A stretch of 64,000 nt of DNA, taken from Thuidium tamariscinum (lineage: Eukaryota > Streptophyta > Bryopsida > Hypnales > Thuidiaceae). Below, piece by piece: positions 1,939-40,752 of this stretch. Below the pieces are notes generated by a model that made no database searches, was not told the DNA's origin, and saw only the letters and a program-made list of their open reading frames with translations. The stretch lies in contig OX344749.2 of assembly GCA_947034885.2 (NCBI GenBank), forward strand, positions 9,191,501-9,255,500. The letters are read 5' to 3'. A program made the translations under genes and the position numbers. Numbering within the stretch: the stretch's first letter is position 1; each line of letters starts with the position of its first letter.

Positions 1939-2291
1939 GCTAGTTTTGTGATACAACTATAGCTAGGCCGGCTCCTGCGACAATGCGGCTATGGCCGCGT
2001 TTGAAACGAGCTAACTAGGTAGCCCACTCTCTGGACCTGGAAAAGGACTTCGATATATTGAGACGGAGCTGGAATTAACGCGGTGTCCACGAGTGCATGA
2101 GCTCAGGTCGAAGCTACATCCGCCATTGTGTGCCAAATGGGGCGACAGAGGACTAAACTACAGAAGGGATATCAGTGAGGTTTGACTGAAGAATGTAAAC
2201 TTCAAAGGGGTTGCAGGGGGGAGGGAAGCCAAGCAATTCAAAAAGAAAGGTAGTATCATTGCTTAGTCTTCAATTGCTTGAGGGTTTAGCT

Positions 2292-5200
2292 ATGGCGGGC
2301 TCCTCCGCCACGTCGATGGAGGGCATCGACATCTGGGGCAGCCGCAACGGCGGCAAGTCCGGTAACAATGGCGGCTATGGCAACCGCAAGTCCCGTTCCT
2401 CCCGTTCCTACAGCCTGGGCTCCGACATGTTCTTCAGCCGCAAAGCCACGCCGTCCCGTCACTACGGCAGCAGCCTGGCCGACGACGACGAGGAGGCGCT
2501 CAAGTGGGCGGCGCTGGAGAAGCTGCCCACGTACGACCGACTGCGCACCACCATTTTGCAGAAGAGCCTCGGCAGTCGAGTGGTGCACGAGGAAGTGGAC
2601 GTCACCAAAATAGGATTTGAGCAGCGAAGGCAGATCATTGATAACTTGCTGAGAGTGGCGGATGAAGACAACGAACGGTTCCTCGTCAAGCTACGCAACC
2701 GCATTGACAGGTTTGCATTCTATACAAGTTCTCCCTGTCGCATTGAATTCTATCCTGTCAATGGACTCTTCCATGGAGAACTCCAACACTAGTGAGGTAG
2801 AGGCTCCTTTAAACATACAGTTCATTAGATTCGCCATCGACCATACAGGTGAACTTTGATTTGGGGTGAGGGTGTAAACGCTTCAACCATTGACACTTCG
2901 CTTTCACTTGTTTTGTAGCTAAACAGAGACTGAGTGACTGTGCAAAATTTTAGATGAAACAAGGTTCTAGAGTGGTGTAGGTCAAGTCTCGAAGTGAACC
3001 TGTGTGGGGAATGGAGACTTCACAGTTCACAAATTTAAAGTTAGTACAAAATGCTGAGCTTGCAAAAGCTTTTGCAAAGTTTTTGCTATGACTGCCAGAA
3101 ATTAATTATCAGCTTTGCAATGGTTTAGCACAAGATGACTGCCAGAAACCGTTAAACGATTTTGCAATGATTTAGTTCCATGAGACTTCCAAAAACCTAC
3201 GAACAATTTTGCTATGGTTTAGTGCAGCATGACTGCTAGAAATCTAGTAACAAATTTGCAATGATTTAGTACAGTAGTGTGAAATGTGTTTGCAACTGTA
3301 TGAGATTGCATTAATTTTGGCAACAGTTTAGGTGTAGAAAGCATTGGTTTCATGGCCAAGACGTTCGCAAATCAAAAAGTTCGCAGCATTTTGACAATTG
3401 TTCGCAACAGACCATGAATCTAAGGCAGACTTGTCAGCAGTTTTGCAATGGTTAAAGCACAATATTGTGCAATGTAGTTACAACTATTTGAGGCTGCAAT
3501 AGGTTATGCATGTAGATAAGCGTTGATTCCGTGGCCAAGTCTTTTGCAACAAGTAATGCAGCTCTTTTTCAATGGTACTCAATTTAATTATAAGTGCAAG
3601 GCAAAGGGTGGAACCTCCACAGAACCATTGCAAACTAATTAATCAAGTGTTGCAATTGCTACTTCCTGTTGCAGTGTGCAATGTTTCAGCTGCTACTTCT
3701 TCTGTCTGCAGCGCTTAGTTTAGCTTCCCTGACTTTTGCTTTTGATTTTTGGGTTGAATGGGTTCGTTTCCATGTTCAAACCTCTGCAATCGTACCACGT
3801 GAGGTAGGGTCCCTACTTTTTCGCTATGATACAGTTTGAATGCAGCTGCATAGCCAAGTTGTACTTCCAAGAGTGTATTTATTATTGCAAGAGGGTACTA
3901 TTGAATTCAGTAGAGGGCTTACATTGGACGCTACTCTATCCAAACATTAGAATCGTCTCTCTCTCAATCAAAGCATTTGACACATGTTCATGGCTGGGCA
4001 AACTTGATATTTTGGAAGAGAGAATGCTTGAGAGCATTCCAATTTGGACATAATGTCAATTTTTTTATTCAATCGAATGTTCATATCTGATCATTTTGGT
4101 TGATTTGAAGGGTTAGAATCATGGATTACAATGCTATTCGATCTATAACTAGCCAATGAGTTAGAGACACGTTTTTTCTGGACTGCGGACGAGGCATTTG
4201 GTATAGGAATTGAAAAGTCCTTGAAGTAGTTAAAAAATTTATAGATTAGGAGTTAATTATTGTGGGTGTGGAACATTGATTACCACTGCAGAGTGGGAAT
4301 TCAGCTGCCGACGATTGAGGTCAGATATGAGAATCTGACTGTGGATGCCAAGTGCTTCGTCGGATCTCGAGCACTGCCAACGCTCAAGAATGTCACCATC
4401 AACATTCTGGAGGTAATTAATTATCTCGAGACAATTTCATACTGATAACCATAATCTTTGTGCTTGAAGCGATGAAACTACGATTTGAGCTACAATCAAC
4501 ATTGGCCATGGCTCTCAGTGAAACTCTGAAGTCGGTGGAAAGTTGTTAGGGATAGTAGTTCGATTACACGCACAAGACGTGACTAACCTTGGCTTCATTT
4601 AATTTGTGGTGACGCAGAGTGTCCTGGGCTGCGTGGGTTTATCGCCTGCCAAAAAGACGGAGTTGAATATCCTTCATGATGTCAGTGGAATCATCAAGCC
4701 AGGACGGTGTGTATCAATTTCTCTTACTACTTCCATCGGAATTCTTGGAGCCTTAATCTGTCACAGGGATATCTAAAGTCGTTCAATGCTTAATTCTTGT
4801 CCTCTTGAGAATCAGAAAGAATTGACGTATCAAACTCGTTGTAAGGACCACGATTGAACTGCTAAACCCAGGAACATTGTGTAAATGTGTCTTTAGAAGA
4901 AAAAAAAGGTGTTATTGCTTTCAGGTGACATTTGTGCTCTTTCTCCTATTAAAGTCCAGACGATGCCACATTTTAATTTAGCCGAACATGAAGGCTTCTG
5001 TAAGTGTATACAGTTGGTAGAAATTCATGGAATCTCAATAGGGGTTATAATTTTCTGACATCCATCGACCTCACAGAATGACATTGCTACTGGGGCCACC
5101 AAGTTCAGGGAAAACAACCTTGCTTCTCACTCTCTCCGGCAAAGTTGACAAATCCCTGCAGGTAGTCGAATTCCCGAAGCTCTTAATCCTGCCATTCTTT

Positions 5201-16888: not shown

Positions 16889-18789
16889 TCAAATCATGGT
16901 GTCTAATCTTAGGTCAATGACACACCCCTGAAGGTTCTGAGAAAATTCAACGGGGGACGCAACAACGTCAGGCTTACGAATGCAGCGCCACGCTGGCGGG
17001 TTCTGGGAGAAGTCACACAGAACAACGAAGCCTTGGCCTTCACTTGCTTGGAAAATGTACACAATGTCGCCGTGGCCAGCGCCTTGAAGCTCGTACTTGA
17101 GATATGAAGACGGGTCGACATATGTCGAATTGCAAACCTTGGGGCACATTTGGAAAAAAAGTGCGTCGGGCATCGCGGTGACGGGTTTCCAGAGCTTCTT
17201 CTGAACGAGCTCCCAGATGGCGATGCCTGCAATTGTGGACGCCACTCGGTCTTCCCGGAATCCAACCAGAAGGAGACGGTCGTTGGACTCCACAAGAAAT
17301 GGCGGGAGAACGTCGGCAAGGTGAGCTCGGCCCTTCCATATTCGTTTCAGCGACGGGTACTCTGTGAACACTAGGTCAGGTGGTAGGGAGACTCTCAGAG
17401 GTCGCCATCGTGCGGTCTTCGTGTCGTAAGCCAGGAATGTGTGGTGTTCTGCCAAAGTCACCATTCCACTCTTGTCAGATTATATGAAATAGTAGCGACA
17501 AATTGACTGTTAAAATATCAGAGTATCATCTTGAACTTATAGCAAATGTGATCGTCTCTGGAAACGACGAGTCCAAATAAGAAGTGTCGTATGCCCTAAA
17601 TACGAAGCTCAGAATCGCAACCTCTGTAGCAATCACACGAAATGTAACCAAAGGTGATAACCAGAACAAGTTCACGTTGTACGACGATCCATCTCAAAAT
17701 CATCTCTTGTCTACCAATGCAACTCACGTGTGACCTGCATGTGAAAAAATTAAGCGCTGCAGAATCTTTCCATGTAGAAAAAGAATGAGCACTTCGTTTG
17801 CGTGCATCCACCAACTAATCAATGGTCTCATATAGGGTCGAGGAGTTCCAAATTTTGAATCTGGCCCTCAAGAAGTATTCATTTGTATCATGGAATAGAA
17901 TGAGGTGGCGGAAAGTAGTACCTCGGTTGGGATCGAAGGACAGCATTTGATTGAACCGCATGTGGTACACGACGCCGTTGCAATACGCCGTGGAGGTCCG
18001 CATCTCGTCGCAGACATGGCTCTGCTGATTGTTAAATTTCTCACATGTGGTGCGCCAGCACTCCGTTCGCGAATCGTAAACCTCGGTGGTCTGCACTTGC
18101 TGGTCATATTCCAGCCCCCCGGCCACCACCAATTTATAATGACCCCCTAAACCTTTGGAACCCGCCGACTCAGTGAACATGCTGACGACGGGCCTCTGCC
18201 TACGTTTGAGCAATGGCGGCAGCTTCTTCCAGGACCTGGTGATGGGGTTGAACACTCCGAACCGGATGAAGTGGCTCTTGAGAGCGCTGATTTCGTACAC
18301 CATGAGACCCGAAGCAGCGCCGCACAACGACAACCCGCCGATTTTCTGCACCGTGGCAAAATGGGGGATCGTGGTGAACGTTTGCCAGTCGTTTTGTGCG
18401 GGATCAAAGGCGTGCAGCTTGTGAGGGCTCCCCGGACCGCCATTTTCGAACAAAAACAGCCACGAACGAGGATTGAAGTCGGCTGTTGACTCGTCTCCCA
18501 AAAGCCGACCGGCATAAATCTCTCTATCCGCTCGCTTGTTCACCAAGCGTGTATGAACGAGCGACGTGAGAGGCAAGTGCGACAGGATTCGTGCCACGAG
18601 TTCCGGTTGTAGGTTGCTCCATATTTGGCTATCGAGAACTGGCGACTCTAAAACATTCCTCCGTGATTGATATTGTGCCATTCCTGGCAAGTCCGAGCTC
18701 ATCAAAAGATTTAGCTGACTCCAACGGCTCAGCTGCTTATTTGCAGACGAGCTCAAAAGAATCTGTCTATTTTGTACTAACGTTCCCAT
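16889..18789 (-). CDS. F-box/kelch-type protein, two exons
   Basis: A 475-aa protein built from exon 1 (18789-17922) and exon 2 (17448-16889). The 473-bp intron has GT-AG borders (AACCGAG/GTACT and TTGGCAG/AACAC), and the phase-1 junction joins two frames that are otherwise separate ORFs. The F-box is around residues 56-96 (IWSNLQPELVARILSHLPLT). It is followed by beta-propeller/kelch-like repeats such as HYKLVVAGGLEYD and a W-rich C-terminal half (FLAYDTKTARWRPL). F-box proteins of this type are substrate adaptors of SCF ubiquitin ligases; the target is unknown. The start ATG gives a Ser-rich 50-residue leader before the F-box. The gene runs toward ABCG. A one-exon reading would stop shortly after the donor, so the spliced model is preferred. 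Confidence 0.85.
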
Positions 18790-33742: not shown

Positions 33743-35305
33743 TCACGGCATTGACGTTACTGGTTTCTCTGACCAATGCACAGGATTGAACACGACGGGG
33801 TTCAATCGATCGAGGCAAGCGCATTCTCGCCGCATGTCTCGCAAGACCCGCCTCGGCGCCGCGAAGTACGGCGTCCACTCTGCTCTCGCAAGCCGATACT
33901 TCGCCATCTTCCCACTCTCAACCGGGCGCCGTGAGAAGTTCCACGTGTCCTTCACAACATCATACATACAAACCTCCGGCATCGTCTCATTGTACGCCGG
34001 CACAAACGCCAGGTAATTCCTTCCCGCGGAGCAATCCCACGCCTTGTGCGACTCGATCCTCCCAAATATGACATAAAAATACTCGTGCGGCAATTGCGTC
34101 ACGTACTTGAATCTCCCCGTGGGCAATTTGCTGTAGATTTCAAGCTCCCAGACTTGAATCATGTTGGGCTTCTCCAGCGGCCGAGTGGCGATGTAAATCG
34201 CGCCATTCTGGCACTGCATCACTCGCGGCGCTTGACAATCCAATGGGTTCATGTAATTTGTGCCTTCATGGAGGTCCGGGATAGTGAAGCTGATCTTGTT
34301 CCATCGCGACAAGGAAATTTCAAAGTAGAAAATCTTGTTGCACCATGTGCTCTCCGCTTTGCCGCCTTTGCGACGAATGGATTGATCGGTTCGCTCTTGG
34401 CCGCCAAAGTAGAGCCCGTCGCCGACTATGGCGATGTCGGTGTGTCCATGGGGAGGGAGGCGTGCGTCTCGAATGCTGGAGCAGGAAACCCAAGCATCCA
34501 CGCGAGAATCGTACGTGAAGAGCGTGACTTCCGAGGTGTTTGCTTCCATTGTACCGGACTCAACAACCTCCGACCCGAGGACGTAGAGCTTGTAGTTAGG
34601 GTGGCGCCGGTTTGGACGCAGCAGCCGCCAGTCACCGACTTCGGCTGGCTCGTCTGTGAGCACCATTTTGGCGGTCTTGTTGTGCATTTTGAAGTGGCCA
34701 AGCGGGGGAAACAGGTGGTAGTCGCGTTGCAGGGGATTGCAAGCCACGAGTATTGATTGCTCGGGAAACTCTTCGTATGTTGGCTTGCTCTCTGCTTCAC
34801 CTTCTGCTGCTGGTGATGACGGAGGTGCAGCGGGATCTGGTTCCGGTGGCGGGATTTCTTTAATGTCAGGGTTTCGGCACTTCGGTCGAATGCCGCCATT
34901 GACGATCAAGAGGCCTACAGCGCCGGCAATGACGTCGTCCACTCCTGATGGGAGAAAATCCAGGGCGGGCATGTTCATCCACTCGCGAGGCGCTATGGAA
35001 ATGATGGGCGCTGATTGCAGGATGCGATTGGAGTTGAAGACGACGACCTTGCAATTGTTACCGCGGTTGACGATGAGGGGGAAGTACGTGCAGTAGAGTC
35101 GCAGATGCTCGCTCCCGGGGAGGTACATTCCGGGATTCCAATCCATGATGTCGTGTTGTGCTCGGCCTCGCCATTGCTCCCATCCGGCCCGCAAGGATGA
35201 GGGACTGTCTAAACACGATTGAAAGACCTCGGCCTTGTCTTCAGAGGTTTGCCCGTCCCAGTGGAACGTCGGCCCCAAGATCTCAACGCTTCTGTTGTGG
35301 CTCAT
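33743..35305 (-). CDS. Kelch-like protein without F-box, single exon
   Basis: An intact 520-aa frame with clear coding character in AT-rich surroundings. Kelch/propeller-like blocks recur in the C-terminal two thirds: YKLYVLGSEVVE, LFTYDSRVDAWVSCSS, DIAIVGDGLYFGGQE, KIFYFEISLSRWNKIS, EVCMYDVVKDTWNFSR. This pattern is close in style to the F-box/kelch protein at 16889-18789. No F-box is visible in the N-terminus, which instead has a W-rich segment. A Pro/Glu/Ala-rich linker lies around residues 148-183. It may act as a ubiquitin-ligase adaptor relative, but without an F-box that is uncertain. The 236-aa frame on the opposite strand (34046-34756) is a shadow. Part of its 5' end is duplicated upstream. 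Confidence 0.75.
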   Translation of the reverse strand: MSHNRSVEILGPTFHWDGQTSEDKAEVFQSCLDSPSSLRAGWEQWRGRAQHDIMDWNPGMYLPGSEHLRLYCTYFPLIVNRGNNCKVVVFNSNRILQSAPIISIAPREWMNMPALDFLPSGVDDVIAGAVGLLIVNGGIRPKCRNPDIKEIPPPEPDPAAPPSSPAAEGEAESKPTYEEFPEQSILVACNPLQRDYHLFPPLGHFKMHNKTAKMVLTDEPAEVGDWRLLRPNRRHPNYKLYVLGSEVVESGTMEANTSEVTLFTYDSRVDAWVSCSSIRDARLPPHGHTDIAIVGDGLYFGGQERTDQSIRRKGGKAESTWCNKIFYFEISLSRWNKISFTIPDLHEGTNYMNPLDCQAPRVMQCQNGAIYIATRPLEKPNMIQVWELEIYSKLPTGRFKYVTQLPHEYFYVIFGRIESHKAWDCSAGRNYLAFVPAYNETMPEVCMYDVVKDTWNFSRRPVESGKMAKYRLARAEWTPYFAAPRRVLRDMRRECACLDRLNPVVFNPVHWSEKPVTSMP

Positions 35306-35800
35306 GGCAATGATGTAAATTGCTCAATGGAACGTCCAAATCCTAGCTCCAATTCCTAGCAACAGGACAGAAAATCCTCTTCGTTGCCCTTGGAAAATCT
35401 GCTTGCACATTCTAGTACGTGATTCGAATGTAATGTCGTACACTGTTCGCTTACATTCTAGGCGATTGAATTGTTTCTCCAGATCCTTGCTTGGATTACC
35501 CAAAATTCCCTTCCCATCTCCAGCGAATTTTTTCTGTGATTGCAGCGCAAGCCTTCCACTGGAATCCGTGTCCTAAGATTGTACATACTTCTAGTGTGGC
35601 TCACTGCAATGATCAGGTACTTCTATTCCACCTTTGCTTCCAAATTCTAGAAACAGAATACGAACCCTTTTGCAGACAGCCGCGAAACAAGCCTTATTGC
35701 CGCAGAGATTGAGGTCCACATTCATGATTTTGGACTTGATTCGAATGGCATTCAGTGATCTGTTCTTAGTTCTTACATTCTAGGTGATTGAAGCGCATCC
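35255..35800 (+). repeat. Duplicated 5' end of the kelch-like gene
   Basis: About 230 bp covering the first codons and 5' flank of the minus-strand kelch gene (about 35255-35480) recurs in diverged form at about 35555-35800. Paired landmarks are GTGGCTCATGGCAATGAT (35297) with GTGGCTCACTGCAATGAT (35596), and TTACATTCTAGGCGATTGAA (35451) with TTACATTCTAGGTGATTGAA (35773). In the outer copy the start codon is lost (CAT to CAC on the + strand). Confidence 0.65.
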
Positions 35801-36245
35801 TCGGCCTCTTGTTAAAAGAAACGCAGTTTCAGTCTCCACAAAATTGTTCTATGTAATGTCATCCATAACTTAATGTACCACCAAAACACCATGCCCATCA
35901 GGGTTTGTATTTCATCAATTTAGGGGAGTACAAAAAGATGATGGAGGGATCAGATAGATAGATATAAACTCCGATCCACTTGTTAAAAAGCAATCCGGCG
36001 TGAATAAAGTGTCTGTTCGTCATGACAATGAGCCAATGTCCACAGGATCAAGGGCTATTGATGCAAAACTACTCTTTCCTTTCGAAAATAGACACTAAAG
36101 TAATAAGTAACTAGTATAAAGAATCCAAGCTTTAATTTTGTTTTGTTAGATTTAATTAGGTTAATTAGATTAATTTAACTCCATTTTAGTTATTAGTTTA
36201 TTAGTGTTAAGTGAGTATGCAATGTAATGTGCATTGTTGGGTTTC
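35801..36245. other. Spacer between kelch gene and retroelement
   Basis: AT-rich DNA holding the presumed 3' tail of the minus-strand retroelement from 36245 downward. I see no clear poly-A tail or target duplication, so the 3' boundary is not fixed. Confidence 0.35.
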
Positions 36246-38303
36246 TTATTCTATTGGAAGTGGTTGGTTGTTTTCAATTCTTCTTTTATGTAGAATGATT
36301 GATCCAGCATATTGTATGGCTATGGTATTGATTGTTTTGAAAGTTTGTGTTAGAGCAGTTTCTGTTAATTTAAGTTTGGCTTCAAGGATTTTCATTGAAG
36401 GAATGTGTGTTGTTCCTCTAGCTCCTGCTATAATGACAATAAGTGGATCTATTTTCCATCCTTGGGCCGCAATACTATTTATTAATGGTTGGTATTTTTG
36501 AATTTTATTATCTATGGTTGTTTGTGCAAATCTGTCATTAGAGTATGTAAATTCAATGAATTGTATTGTGAGATTATTATCTGGGATATTTGGTGGGTTG
36601 CTTTGGTAGGAGAGTCCTTTAATCCAGAAGATATCCGGTTTAAATCTAACGTTACAATGACATCTTTGTCTTTGGCAAGAGCAAGGTAACAACCATGGGG
36701 GGACTGTGTTTTCTTGTGGATTATTATTGAATGATCCTGCATTCATGAGAGTATAATATCTACTATTTTTGGTAGATAGGATTAGTTTTCTCAATTCCCA
36801 TACTGCTTTGTTATGTCTTTTGACACGAAGGGCATGAATATGATGTTGTTTGCATTTTAAGAGTACATGGAGCCATGTGTCTACGTCATGAGAGTTACAA
36901 ATGGAGCATGTGATGGATGGAAATCTCTCAATCCCAAAAAATAATTGTTTTCTAGCATTCCCCATGTATTGGCCGGTGCGGAATTTTAGTAGACTTGTTT
37001 TTTGTGAGTCGGTTATTTCAGGGTTTGACCAAAATTCATTAGAGAGGTCCTTATGTATATTGGGGTTAAGGGTCCATTTACTAATGTTAGGGAATCGTTG
37101 TGCCATTATTTCAAGATTTTTATCATGATCATGTTTGATGATGTATGTTCCTAAGCATCTAACTGGACCTTTGTCAGGTCGATGGGCTGGACCTGGCCAT
37201 TCATCTTTTTGGTAATAGAATGGAGTAGTATGTGCAAATTCATAATTTTTTGAGGCAAATTTGTATTCTTTTGTTGTGCCATGTTTTGCAAGTTTGTCAG
37301 CTTGTTCATTGCCTACAATATTAGTGTGGCCTTTAATTTTAGAAATTGTTGTAGGTTGTGTACGGTTTTGAAGCATTTCTACTATAGATTCCAATATAAT
37401 TTTGTTTGCATGGTTGCGATGTAGAGTTGGGTGTTTTAGTTGTGTATTAAGGACATATAGACAGTTTAGGCAATCAGTGAATATGTAGGCAGGTTCATGT
37501 GGATATTGGGTAGTGATTATGCGTAGAGTTTTGTGTATGGCCATGAGCTCAACTCTAAAAATGGTTTGTAAACCAGGAAGTCGTTTAGAGATCTGAATTT
37601 CTTCTTTGAAAGAGTTGTATATACCGTATCCTGCTTTTTCGCGTATCCAATGTCCATCTGCATGTTGTTGTGGTGGTATAAATGAACCATCTGTGTAGTA
37701 GCTATATTGTGGTGGAAACTTTAATTGAGGGATAGATGTATACGTTGGTAATGGGGGGGTATATAAATTTATTGGATTATAGTTGATTTTATAAGTGAGT
37801 TTTTTCCAATTTGAATTCTTTTTTACTATTACCTTACTAGGTGTTGGTGCAGCAATTTGTGTGTGATATTGTGGTATTTGCATATTTTGGAGGATTTTTG
37901 TGAGGGAGTCTAGTTGGTTGGGTGGGCCAATATTGTGGTTTTGGTGATGTATGCATAGAATATGGATTGCCAGAGGCTTAGTATGTGGTTGTTTGTTTAG
38001 TTCAATTGGAATTGTTGGTTTTTCATATGTAATAGTGTCCGCAGCAAAATGTGCAATAACGTGTGTATCTTCAAATGGTCCAATATATGGGGAGAAGTTG
38101 TGGTACCAATTTATATCCGGTATGACTAATATAGTTATGGTGTTTAGATCATGTTTGGCGGCTAGTCTTGCCCAATGTAGTGCTTGTTGGGCCGTTTCTT
38201 CGTTTTGTGGATGTGCAAAACCTTTACCTTTCCATTTGTATTGAAATGCTTTGCCGAGTGATCCAAATACTTTATCTCTTTCAAAGAGAGTAAAATTGTG
38301 TGA
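36246..38303 (-). CDS. Retroelement ORF: RNase H, CCHC motif, RLE-like domain
   Basis: The frame is open from 38303 to the stop at 36246; the first ATG at 37883 gives 545 aa. Numbered from that Met, the RNase H core has YTDGSF (D65), FRVELMA (E112), IFTDCLNCL (D137) and GNEQADKLAKHG (D196), so all four acidic residues are present. A C-x2-C-x9-H-x4-C motif lies at C326, C329, H339 and C344, and a second cysteine cluster CSCQRQRCHC at 401-410. The C-terminus has KPDI (D417), QFIEFTY (E444), K460 and KYQPLI (463-468), then IIAGARG (484-490), which resembles the R2-type restriction-like endonuclease. Upstream of Met37883 the frame continues about 140 codons with a possible degenerate methyltransferase-like segment. 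This part is probably made as part of a polyprotein with the upstream frame, not from its own ATG. Confidence 0.8.
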   Translation of the reverse strand, partial: SHNFTLFERDKVFGSLGKAFQYKWKGKGFAHPQNEETAQQALHWARLAAKHDLNTITILVIPDINWYHNFSPYIGPFEDTHVIAHFAADTITYEKPTIPIELNKQPHTKPLAIHILCIHHQNHNIGPPNQLDSLTKILQNMQIPQYHTQIAAPTPSKVIVKKNSNWKKLTYKINYNPINLYTPPLPTYTSIPQLKFPPQYSYYTDGSFIPPQQHADGHWIREKAGYGIYNSFKEEIQISKRLPGLQTIFRVELMAIHKTLRIITTQYPHEPAYIFTDCLNCLYVLNTQLKHPTLHRNHANKIILESIVEMLQNRTQPTTISKIKGHTNIVGNEQADKLAKHGTTKEYKFASKNYEFAHTTPFYYQKDEWPGPAHRPDKGPVRCLGTYIIKHDHDKNLEIMAQRFPNISKWTLNPNIHKDLSNEFWSNPEITDSQKTSLLKFRTGQYMGNARKQLFFGIERFPSITCSICNSHDVDTWLHVLLKCKQHHIHALRVKRHNKAVWELRKLILSTKNSRYYTLMNAGSFNNNPQENTVPPWLLPCSCQRQRCHCNVRFKPDIFWIKGLSYQSNPPNIPDNNLTIQFIEFTYSNDRFAQTTIDNKIQKYQPLINSIAAQGWKIDPLIVIIAGARGTTHIPSMKILEAKLKLTETALTQTFKTINTIAIQYAGSIILHKRRIENNQPLPIE

Positions 38304-39477
38304 TTAGTGTGGAGCAGGTGATTGGTGATGAGAAATATGAATGGGAGATGTCAAATGCTTTTGTTAAGGAATCTAAGATGTTTTGTGGAAGGGAGTATTG
38401 CGACGTACTTAGTGTGTTTTTATTCAATTTCTTATATTTGTAACGTTGATATAGCCATGTGATCTCGGTTTCAAATGATTGTGTAGGTGGTGTTAAGCCA
38501 TGCGTATTATGAATAGCAGTTTGATATTGTTTCCATAGCCATTGTAATCTAGTGGTTGGAATAGTTATGAGGTAGTTACCGGTGTCAAGGTATATATGTG
38601 TTAGTTCATTTTGTGTTATTATGGTAGGTGTGTTTGTTATTATGTCTTTGTCTAGATTACATTCATTAGTTGAGATTTGCATAAGTGGAATTATTGTTGG
38701 GGGTGGGATAAATCTAGTATCTCTAGATTGCTCATGGTTAAAGTTAACCATGATAAGGTTTTTGTAGTATTTGTGTTGTTGTTTTGTATAATATTGTGTT
38801 AGTAGGTTGATGTTGTGTGCAATTACCGTTGGGTGATTAAATGGGAAAAGATGCCTTTGTGGTAGCCATTTACTGTAAGTGGTATTGTTTTCAAGTGTCC
38901 ATTGGCATAGATATATATTAAATTTTTTAGGGATTTTGTATTTGTCTTTGATTTCTTTGATTTGATGATCTATTATAATGTATATGGGGAAGCTAAGTGG
39001 GTTGTTTTGAATATGTAGAGGTGGATTTTGTTGTTGTGGTATTTGTATTGGTGGTGGATGTGGAGGGCTATTTGAAGTCCTGGGGATTAAATTATGGTTA
39101 TTTGAGATGTATTGTGCTTTTAGAGTTCTTGGTAGCGGGTGTCTTGGACAAGGTTGTAAACATTCAGGTGTACATTGTGGATAACAGAAAAGTTGTTCAG
39201 CTATATTTAAAGCAACTTTTTCAATTTTGGTTGGAGTTTTGTAGTATATTTTGAAGTCTTGGGGTGACATTAAATGTGTACCATTTGGAAGTGTAATGTG
39301 TTTAATTTTATATATGTTATGTAAAAGGAGTTTATGTAGCATTTTAAAGGAAAGTTTGGAATTTATATGTGGTAGAATAAGGGTGGTTTGTGACATCCAT
39401 TCTTTTTCAAGTTGTGTTGGGTGTAGTTGAAAGTTATCTATTACACTCATGAGGTGGATGTTTGCTTCATGGAGGGA
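38281..39477 (-). CDS. Retroelement ORF: post-RT region with Cys/His motif
   Basis: Open from 39477, first ATG at 39450 (389 aa), ending in TGA at 38281. The N-terminus has the style of the segment following a LINE-type RT (LPHINSKLSFKMLHKLLL). A Cys/His cluster follows at residues 89-104 (C89, C93, C97, C101, H104), then a Pro-rich linker near 120-150. The end (SSPITCSTLITQFYSL) leads in sense directly into the +1 frame of the next ORF. The two overlap by only 23 nt (38281-38303) and the junction codons are CTT TGA. It is a fragment: the catalytic RT motifs are not in the window. No host function is implied. Confidence 0.6.
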   Translation of the reverse strand, partial: SLHEANIHLMSVIDNFQLHPTQLEKEWMSQTTLILPHINSKLSFKMLHKLLLHNIYKIKHITLPNGTHLMSPQDFKIYYKTPTKIEKVALNIAEQLFCYPQCTPECLQPCPRHPLPRTLKAQYISNNHNLIPRTSNSPPHPPPIQIPQQQNPPLHIQNNPLSFPIYIIIDHQIKEIKDKYKIPKKFNIYLCQWTLENNTTYSKWLPQRHLFPFNHPTVIAHNINLLTQYYTKQQHKYYKNLIMVNFNHEQSRDTRFIPPPTIIPLMQISTNECNLDKDIITNTPTIITQNELTHIYLDTGNYLITIPTTRLQWLWKQYQTAIHNTHGLTPPTQSFETEITWLYQRYKYKKLNKNTLSTSQYSLPQNILDSLTKAFDISHSYFSSPITCSTLITQFYSL

Positions 39478-39478
39478 T

Positions 39479-40752
39479 CACTACACCAATCGGTAGTAAC
39501 AGTGGGCGTTACACTATCCTCTCAAAAAGATGGGCGTTACACAATGACAATGAACTTATATATGGTTATGACTTTTATGAGAAATATTTTTTCTCTTTGT
39601 AAGTGTATTAGTGTGATTTATGTTGAAGAATCAGCATATACAACATCAATAAAAATATTCCTCCCCTTGCAAAAAATTGTAGCTATACATAAATTCATTT
39701 TGTAACATGTACTTATAGATCAAATCTATGTAGGAGAATGTAGAACCTAAGACATCAAGATATATTTTAAGAACATGGTTCTAAAGCCCATCAAAGGGTT
39801 CAATATGGGCTTTGGGGATCAAGCTCTCAAATTATAGCTTGAAGCTTTAGAGGTTTTTTTAACTACTAGTGTATTTACATTTTAGATATGAATGAATATA
39901 TACAATAATTCATTTATTCATGGAAGAGAGTGTACAATCCCCCCCAAAAGACTAATACCATCATAAGGTTTGTAGCAATTTTGTAATTTCATCTACAAAA
40001 AAAGAGCAATCTATAGTCAAATAATTCTTCAAATCATTCTATTGCTTTTCAAACAATTTTTTAATTGAATATCTTGAATCTGGCATTGAAGAAGATGAGG
40101 AGATTAAAGTGTTTGAATGAGTAGTAGCTCAAGTAACAAAAAATCAACATTATGAATGAACTTTTACTAAAAGGCATATTAGTCTTATTGAATATAAGAT
40201 TAACTAATAATTATCTATGGTGTTCAAATTAGAATTGAATCTATTAGAATGTGTATCAATAATTAAATAGAATAAATGGTGTAGTTGTGATTATTGAATC
40301 TATTTTCAAGAAAAACACTAAGAGAAGTTCCTACTATTGACATGTAAATAGTATAATTAATCAAATTATTTTCATAGTTCTATTCATTTACTTTATTTTA
40401 ACCTAGTGTTGTTTTTTTCCTTTTCTTAGCATCTTTCTTTTGTATTTCCAAGCGCATTCGTAATTGCATGTATTCAACACAAGCTTCCCTTACAACTTTG
40501 ATGTGTATATGATATCATTGCAATTATTTGTTATTATTTTTGTATGCAACCAATGAATGATGTCATTGCAAAGAAGTGTACAATAACAATTCCAACAAGG
40601 AGTTTATTCATTATAATTCTTTGAGATTTGTAAAGATCTTCATGTCTTCTATATTTGATTGGTGAATGTAGATTTGGAACTTCTTCTTTAAAATGAGACC
40701 TCCTACTTCATATATATTGTAATACAATTTCTAATTGGAAATCAATGTAGTG
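39479..40752. mobile_element. Possible CACTA-type element truncating the retroelement
   Basis: Starts CACTACACCAATCGG with two TGGGCGTTACAC subterminal repeats (39508 and 39530). A candidate right end TGTAGTG stops at 40752. GAT precedes the start (39476-39478) and follows the end (40753-40755), a possible 3-bp duplication. Only CACTACA is shared between the termini, no TGGGCGTTACAC copies appear near the right end, and I could not find the missing RT sequence beyond 40755. The left end is more credible than the right. Confidence 0.35.

Follow-up and report, generated by a model that had tools for sequence, protein, structure and literature searches.

Which type of retroelement can join an RNase H to a C-terminus resembling the restriction-like endonuclease (RLE) of R2-type elements in a land plant? 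The question is raised by a stretch of 64,000 nucleotides from Thuidium tamariscinum (assembly GCA_947034885.2, contig OX344749.2, positions 9,191,501 to 9,255,500 of the forward strand; hereafter the window), where an open reading frame (ORF) of 545 aa at 37883..36246 on the minus strand encodes both. According to our analysis, this ORF belongs to a multi-copy family of non-LTR retrotransposons (long interspersed nuclear elements, LINEs) with the Dualen/RandI architecture, and the copy in the window is 5'-truncated and probably young; to this reading we assign a probability of about 0.8. The Dualen/RandI assignment would follow from domain architecture rather than from comparison with a Dualen reverse transcriptase (RT) sequence.

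The copy in the window

The minus-strand sequence 39468..35953 represents 3.5 kb of LINE sequence, flanked and bounded by 12-bp direct repeats, TGATCCCTCCAT, which are exact at both 39469-39480 and 35941-35952. A search for this repeat with at most one mismatch gave 2 hits against 0.32 expected, and two or more hits occurred in 4 of 100 shuffles. Over 3528 columns the copy is 97.6% identical to the 3' part of L011, one of the longer copies recovered from the same genome. The 545-aa ORF starts at an ATG within a longer frame, open up to 38303 (38303..36246, 685 codons plus stop), which overlaps a preceding frame of 398 codons (39477..38284). The two frames are one gene, split by a frameshift near 38281-38303; in L009 and L011 the corresponding ORF2 frames run on without a break. 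The first-pass annotation had placed the feature at 36246..39478, and in this it caught a real element. It missed the upstream frame as a part of this gene, and likewise the PCIF1-like domain, the 5' truncation, the target-site duplication (TSD), ORF1 and a 2A-like motif. The features of the copy, all on the minus strand, are as follows.

35953..39468, minus: 5'-truncated LINE copy (12-bp direct repeats and alignment to L011)
39469..39480, minus: TSD, 5' side, TGATCCCTCCAT (exact repeat)
35941..35952, minus: TSD, 3' side, TGATCCCTCCAT (exact repeat)
38281..39468, minus: ORF2 remnant, first frame, with its stop at 38281-38283; covers the post-RT linker and the PCIF1-like domain's first half
38308..38493, minus: PCIF1-like domain, first half (PF12237 profile 14-76, E 2.9e-6 alone)
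38115..38285, minus: PCIF1-like domain, second half (PF12237 profile 83-143, E 0.18 alone)
38202-38213, minus: HPQN replacing NPPF, within the second half of the PCIF1-like domain
36246..38303, minus: second frame of the ORF2 remnant, an open reading frame of 685 aa ending at the stop
37278..37706, minus: RNase H (PF00075)
36852..36908, minus: CCHC knuckle C-x2-C-x9-H-x4-C, CSICNSHDVDTWLHVLLKC (motif)
36654..36683, minus: second Cys/His cluster, CSCQRQRCHC (motif)
36414..36644, minus: RLE-like core with PD, E, K in KX2KY, and AGARG (motif, as defined in PMC5678591)
35953..36245, minus: 3' untranslated region with terminal (TATC)n tail (printed 3' end)

A scan of 35500-40000 against Rfam at the gathering threshold gave no match. 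A Cys/His-rich segment, CYPQCTPECLQPCPRH, was noticed by eye at 39136-39189 (minus strand), between the RT and the PCIF1-like domain, and may be an additional metal-binding site.

A multi-copy family in the genome

The genome (363 Mb in 19 contigs) was searched with the last 215 aa of the ORF. At least 139 matches were found among the 150 of 199 candidates that were scored, and at least 43 of them span 214-215 residues at 90-100% identity; because of this number of matches, so many of them near full-length, the segment is more than a chance ORF. From the 43 copies, 26 were taken at 9.4-10 kb each, and the other 17 beyond the window copy's own place were left out. The search, proposed with the first-pass annotation, thus recovered longer copies with RT, RNase H, the RLE motif and an apurinic endonuclease-like (APE) domain, and these are unlikely to be ordinary L1 elements, as their printed ends have no poly(A) and their RNase H carries H in nearly all copies.

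The 3' end is common to all 27 sequences, that is, the 26 copies and the window copy. Eight of the 27 (L010, L012, L022, L026, L028, L031, L033 and the window copy) are 5'-truncated within ORF1 or ORF2 at differing points; most of the remaining copies extend to the 5' limit of the sequence taken, and two, L020 and L032, contain an interruption. Seven of the eight truncated copies have a candidate TSD of 9-12 bp, which adjoins or overlaps the aligned start in six and lies 13 bp off in L031; in L010 the sole match is 7 bp long and out of place. The 27 printed 3' tails consist of (TA)n, (TATC)n or ATT/TA mixtures, with no poly(A) tail among them. By eye, the flanks of the 27 copies appear unrelated, which led us to reject strict target-site specificity. 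Two 5' pieces, L035 and L036, remain 98% alike as far as they extend, which places the 5' end still further out and makes the element longer than ~11 kb.

Four copies on four contigs are nearly identical (L013, L015 and L019 share 99.4-99.5% with L011 across 8.6-9.0 kb). Because some copies are this similar and the domains are under purifying selection (see below), the family has moved recently, and the window copy is probably young as well. Further matches at 30-60% identity, together with L037-L042, belong to related families of this element type that are older and decayed, and the LINE lineage has therefore probably been resident in the genome for a long time. Relatives of the element were also sought in viral contigs (three queries) and in contigs of prokaryote genomes (one query), and none was found.

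Gene plan of the longer copies

In the longer copies ORF1 is followed by an ORF2 with the order 2A-like motif, APE, RT, PCIF1-like domain, RNase H, CCHC and RLE. The two ORFs lie in different frames and overlap by 28 nt. We considered a -1 frameshift between them but do not claim one, as some of the 15 printed copies lack the C-run of the overlap. A Pfam scan of ORF1 gave no match worth naming (best E 0.059).

The ORF2 of L009 is open for 2385 codons, with Pfam matches in the order Exo_endo_phos, RVT_1 (E 3.1e-27), PCIF1_WW (E 2.4e-12, 47.2 bits against a cut-off of 31.1) and RNase_H (E 2.5e-13). Its APE was matched by Exo_endo_phos_2 (PF14529) at E 2e-5 and 24.9 bits in the whole protein and at 29.8 bits, against a cut-off of 27.4, when the region was scanned alone; a weak match to exodeoxyribonuclease III was also obtained (TIGR00633, E 0.0017). 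L009 is frameshifted within the RLE. In L011, one piece of 1928 codons begins within the C-terminal portion of the APE and continues across RT, PCIF1-like domain and RNase H to the end of the RLE, and APE and RLE therefore share one frame. The first-pass annotation had contrasted the RLE with the N-terminal APE of land-plant L1-type elements; this opposition falls, as the longer copies carry both, the APE having been lost from the truncated window copy. Characteristic residues are kept across copies, with IQETK and CGDFNRD in 18/18 each and YADD in 18/21.

When the RT was compared with PDB chains, the best matches were R2 proteins (9nl3, 9dou and 9nl2, E 3.4e-23 to 7e-23), followed by R2Bm and LINE-1 ORF2p. 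Among the solved R2 and LINE-1 proteins compared, this ranking would fit a place for the element's RT between the RLE and APE groups. The sequence GDIETNPGP, found some 140 codons into ORF2 and ahead of the APE, fits the published StopGo core (D/G/C/N)(V/I)ExNPGP (PMC12846837). Thirteen of 19 copies have an intact core; GDIETN is present in all 19, the six others being changed within NPGP.

RNase H and the RLE-like C-terminus

The RNase H of the window copy was recognized by PF00075 (E 1.1e-14 and 1.8e-14 in two scans) with D, E, D, H and D all present, which confirms the RNase H with all acidic residues that had been read on the minus strand from the letters. The H of the KGH site is found in 22 of 23 copies, with D in the remaining one. 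In the CCHC knuckle, CSIC is present in 23/23 copies and the last C in 25/25 (the H was not tallied), and the second Cys cluster, PCSCQRQRCHCN, is exact in 23/25.

The motif spacings proposed in the first-pass annotation (C-x2-C-x9-H-x4-C, a second Cys cluster, PD, E at +27, K at +16, KY, AGARG) turned out to be exact: the RLE-like core has the D of PD, E at +27, K 16 residues past E within KIQKY, and then AGARG. Among 25 copies, the first element is KPDI in 24 and KPGI in one, IEF is invariant, and KIQKY occurs in 23 with KIQIY and RIQKY in one each. In six decayed relatives (pieces of 32-66% identity, compared by eye), D and E are each kept in 4 of the 5 that cover the site and the first K in 6 of 6. 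The RLE of R2-type LINEs has its catalytic K on the second helix, as the first K of KX2KY, and follows a CCHC with the spacing CX2-3CX7-8HX4C (PMC5678591); KIQKY fits KX2KY exactly. A C-terminal RLE is thus well supported by motif, not proven.

Selection and the PCIF1-like domain

Selection was estimated as the pairwise ratio of nonsynonymous to synonymous differences per site (pN/pS; Nei-Gojobori counts) using, for each domain, those of the 27 sequences in which a single tblastn piece covered 90% or more of it; a copy with a break inside a domain is thereby not counted for that domain, and decay of dead copies shifts the ratio towards 1. The values were 0.12 for ORF1 (14 copies), 0.17 for APE (18), 0.12 for RT (21), 0.24 for the post-RT segment (21), 0.21 for the PCIF1-like domain (23), 0.18 for RNase H (23), 0.18 for the post-RNase H segment (23) and 0.15 for the RLE (25). 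The domains are under purifying selection, with pN/pS of 0.12-0.24. For the ~140 codons that precede the 2A-like motif (L011:1248-1670 and equivalents), which are hydrophobic, pN/pS is 0.51, a weaker constraint than on the domains.

The two halves of the PCIF1-like domain flank the frameshift of the window copy; when joined, they match PF12237 (PCIF1_WW) at 54.6 bits (E 1.3e-14, cut-off 31.1), and unbroken copies score 47-57 bits. The joined domain also matches PDB chains of PCIF1 (6irx, E 0.0018; 6irv, E 0.005), and a profile of seven copies gives weaker matches (6irx, E 0.017; 6irv, 0.2). A model of the region by AlphaFold 2 (AF2) was too poor for a fold search (pLDDT 30.6). Across the genome PF12237 has 46 matches, 45 of them over the cut-off, the one below it being the first half in the window. 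Forty-five of the 46 lie within 3.5 kb of a match to the RLE region, as compared against 65 of the 139 places. The exception, C2:26362057-26362353, scores 33.3 bits and contains two stops, and by eye no other of the 139 places is nearby; it may be what is left of a different family or of a host gene. The exon-by-exon search, which could miss a divergent gene, revealed no PCIF1 gene of the host in the genome.

One interpretation of this domain would be an active adenine methyltransferase that marks the capped RNA of the element itself. The PF12237 match above the Pfam cut-off, its near-constant place beside the RLE and the pN/pS of 0.21 are in its favor. Changes in NPPF, however, abolish the activity of PCIF1 (PMC10544176), and here the residues aligned with NPPF are HPQN in all but one of 23 copies, which has HPQD; furthermore, no WW domain was matched by Pfam in the window frames or in the ORF2 of L009. 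We therefore regard methylation by this domain as unlikely. The present domain is similar to the cap m6Am methyltransferase PCIF1/CAPAM in its Pfam and PDB sequence matches and differs in HPQN for NPPF, in the lack of a matched WW domain and in being embedded in a LINE. Despite the loss of NPPF, it is constrained like the neighboring domains. Drosophila Pcif1 is reported to be catalytically dead yet functional (PMC10544176), and, as NPPF is needed for activity, this makes a binding role plausible. We infer that the PCIF1-like domain does not methylate but persists as a module for binding RNA, perhaps the cap or the 5' end.

Alternative explanations

An ordinary plant L1-type LINE, with a Cys/His-rich C-terminus that resembles an RLE and has no nuclease function, would share with the present element ORF1 and the succession APE-RT-RNase H in ORF2; L1 ORF2p is also among the RT matches, and no profile, PDB or fold match to an RLE was obtained. 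Against this explanation, none of the 27 printed ends carries poly(A), the best RT matches are R2 proteins, and D, E and KX2KY are strongly conserved. In addition, the KGH site has H in nearly all copies, in contrast to the R reported for the archaeal-like RNase H of plant L1 (PMC4640811). Such an element is improbable. Still less credible is an R2- or Utopia-type RLE element that gained an RNase H. R2 proteins are the best RT matches and the nearest solved RT relatives, and the CCHC followed by an RLE with KX2KY is the order of the R2 group. Unlike R2, which is a single ORF without APE, the longer copies have an APE and a separate ORF1, besides the RNase H and the PCIF1-like domain; the unrelated flanks speak against a fixed target, and in oomycete Utopia the RNase H is placed upstream of RT (PMC4640811).

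Several observations weigh against the Dualen/RandI reading. The RLE region has no RLE match in Pfam, NCBIfam or PDB, so a profile check of the C-terminus, as proposed with the first-pass annotation, gave no confirmation; its Pfam matches are solely weak and unrelated (DUF4177, E 0.019), a PDB profile search with the RLE alignment gave 0 hits, and its AF2 model was too poor for a fold search (pLDDT 36.5). The CCHC, with C-x9-H, is one residue longer than the published spacing, and the P of PD is absent in all five of the six decayed relatives that cover the site. The APE has no match among PDB chains at E up to 0.1. The RT is nearly as far from R2Bm (E 3.2e-15) as from LINE-1 ORF2p (E 2.4e-13). 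An unbroken frame from the start of ORF2 to the end of the RLE is found in 0 of 26 copies, and in 7 of 19 copies no Met precedes the 2A-like motif, a difficulty for the start of ORF2 translation. Overall, the earlier suggestion of an RLE-bearing element close to the Dualen/RandI plan is supported in part: RNase H, CCHC and the conserved KX2KY speak for it, and a profile, PDB or fold match to confirm the RLE was not obtained.

Predicted mechanism

The activities of all domains are predicted from sequence. The 3' anchoring, 5' truncation and TSDs point to target-primed reverse transcription, which would begin from a nicked chromosome at the simple-repeat 3' tail of a Dualen/RandI-like element. 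It would often halt early, producing 5'-truncated copies, and leave duplications of 9-12 bp. APE and RLE may divide first- and second-strand cutting between them, RNase H would remove the template RNA, and the PCIF1-like domain may act as a non-methylating RNA-binding module, perhaps at the cap or 5' end.

Neighboring and other genomic features

A Kelch-like ORF at 33743-35305 (minus) adjoins the element, with weak Pfam kelch matches below the cut-off. The ORFs 17815-18789 and 16889-17464 (both minus) appear F-box/kelch-like by eye and, with it, possibly form a local family. The ORF at 2211-2792 (plus) has a stretch of 18 residues resembling the N-terminus of PDR-type ABCG transporters and is a candidate for such a gene. 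Elsewhere in the genome there are 86 DYW-deaminase matches, all over the cut-off; DYW PPR proteins in this abundance are characteristic of land plants and point to a land-plant host. Among 47 of 9398 candidates scored, the three top-scoring 5S rRNA genes (C9:24882757, C13:12284 and C16:12588) are each the sole one listed on its stretch, and arrays are possible.

Comparison with known elements and significance

The joint presence of APE and RLE defines Dualen/RandI (Kojima and Fujiwara 2005, as cited in PMC3636483 and PMC4640811), which in green algae also has an RNase H (PMC4640811) and tails of (ATT)n and (CTATTT)n (PMC3747384). The element described here agrees with it in the APE N-terminal to RT, the RNase H downstream of RT, the non-poly(A) simple-repeat tail and, if the conserved D..E..KX2KY motif marks an RLE, the combination of APE with RLE. 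It differs in its land-plant host and may differ in the PCIF1-like domain and the 2A-like motif. APE-type LINEs with 2A/StopGo sequences are known (Odon 2013, as cited in PMC12846837); GDIETNPGP fits their core, whereas here the element is from a plant and the motif lies early in ORF2, before the APE, skipping being predicted from the motif.

According to a 2022 review, the LINE superfamilies of land plants are L1 and RTE (PMC9033089), and the available text of a paper on the transposable elements of Physcomitrium names LINE-1 and LINE-2 and neither RLE nor endonuclease (PMC7466625). In the literature searched, no description was found of the present combination of domains, of a PCIF1 domain in a plant retroelement or of an RLE-bearing LINE in a land plant. 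A work by Iyer, Zhang and Aravind (2016) reportedly touches on PCIF1-like methylases in retroelements, and a prior mention is possible.

It is possible that the family represents an undescribed land-plant clade. We propose only tentatively, as the less probable side of the question, a recently active dual-endonuclease lineage distinct from algal Dualen/RandI, with the PCIF1 fold captured as a non-catalytic RNA-binding part, StopGo in ORF2 and no detectable host PCIF1.

In conclusion, our analysis suggests that the LINE repertoire of land plants is wider than L1 and RTE. The PCIF1-like domain, under selection although its catalytic motif is gone, points to a cap-methyltransferase fold put to use without catalysis. 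Dual-endonuclease elements have been used in arguing how LINEs moved from RLE to APE (PMC4640811), and a recently mobile land-plant family would offer a living system for asking which nuclease cuts which strand.

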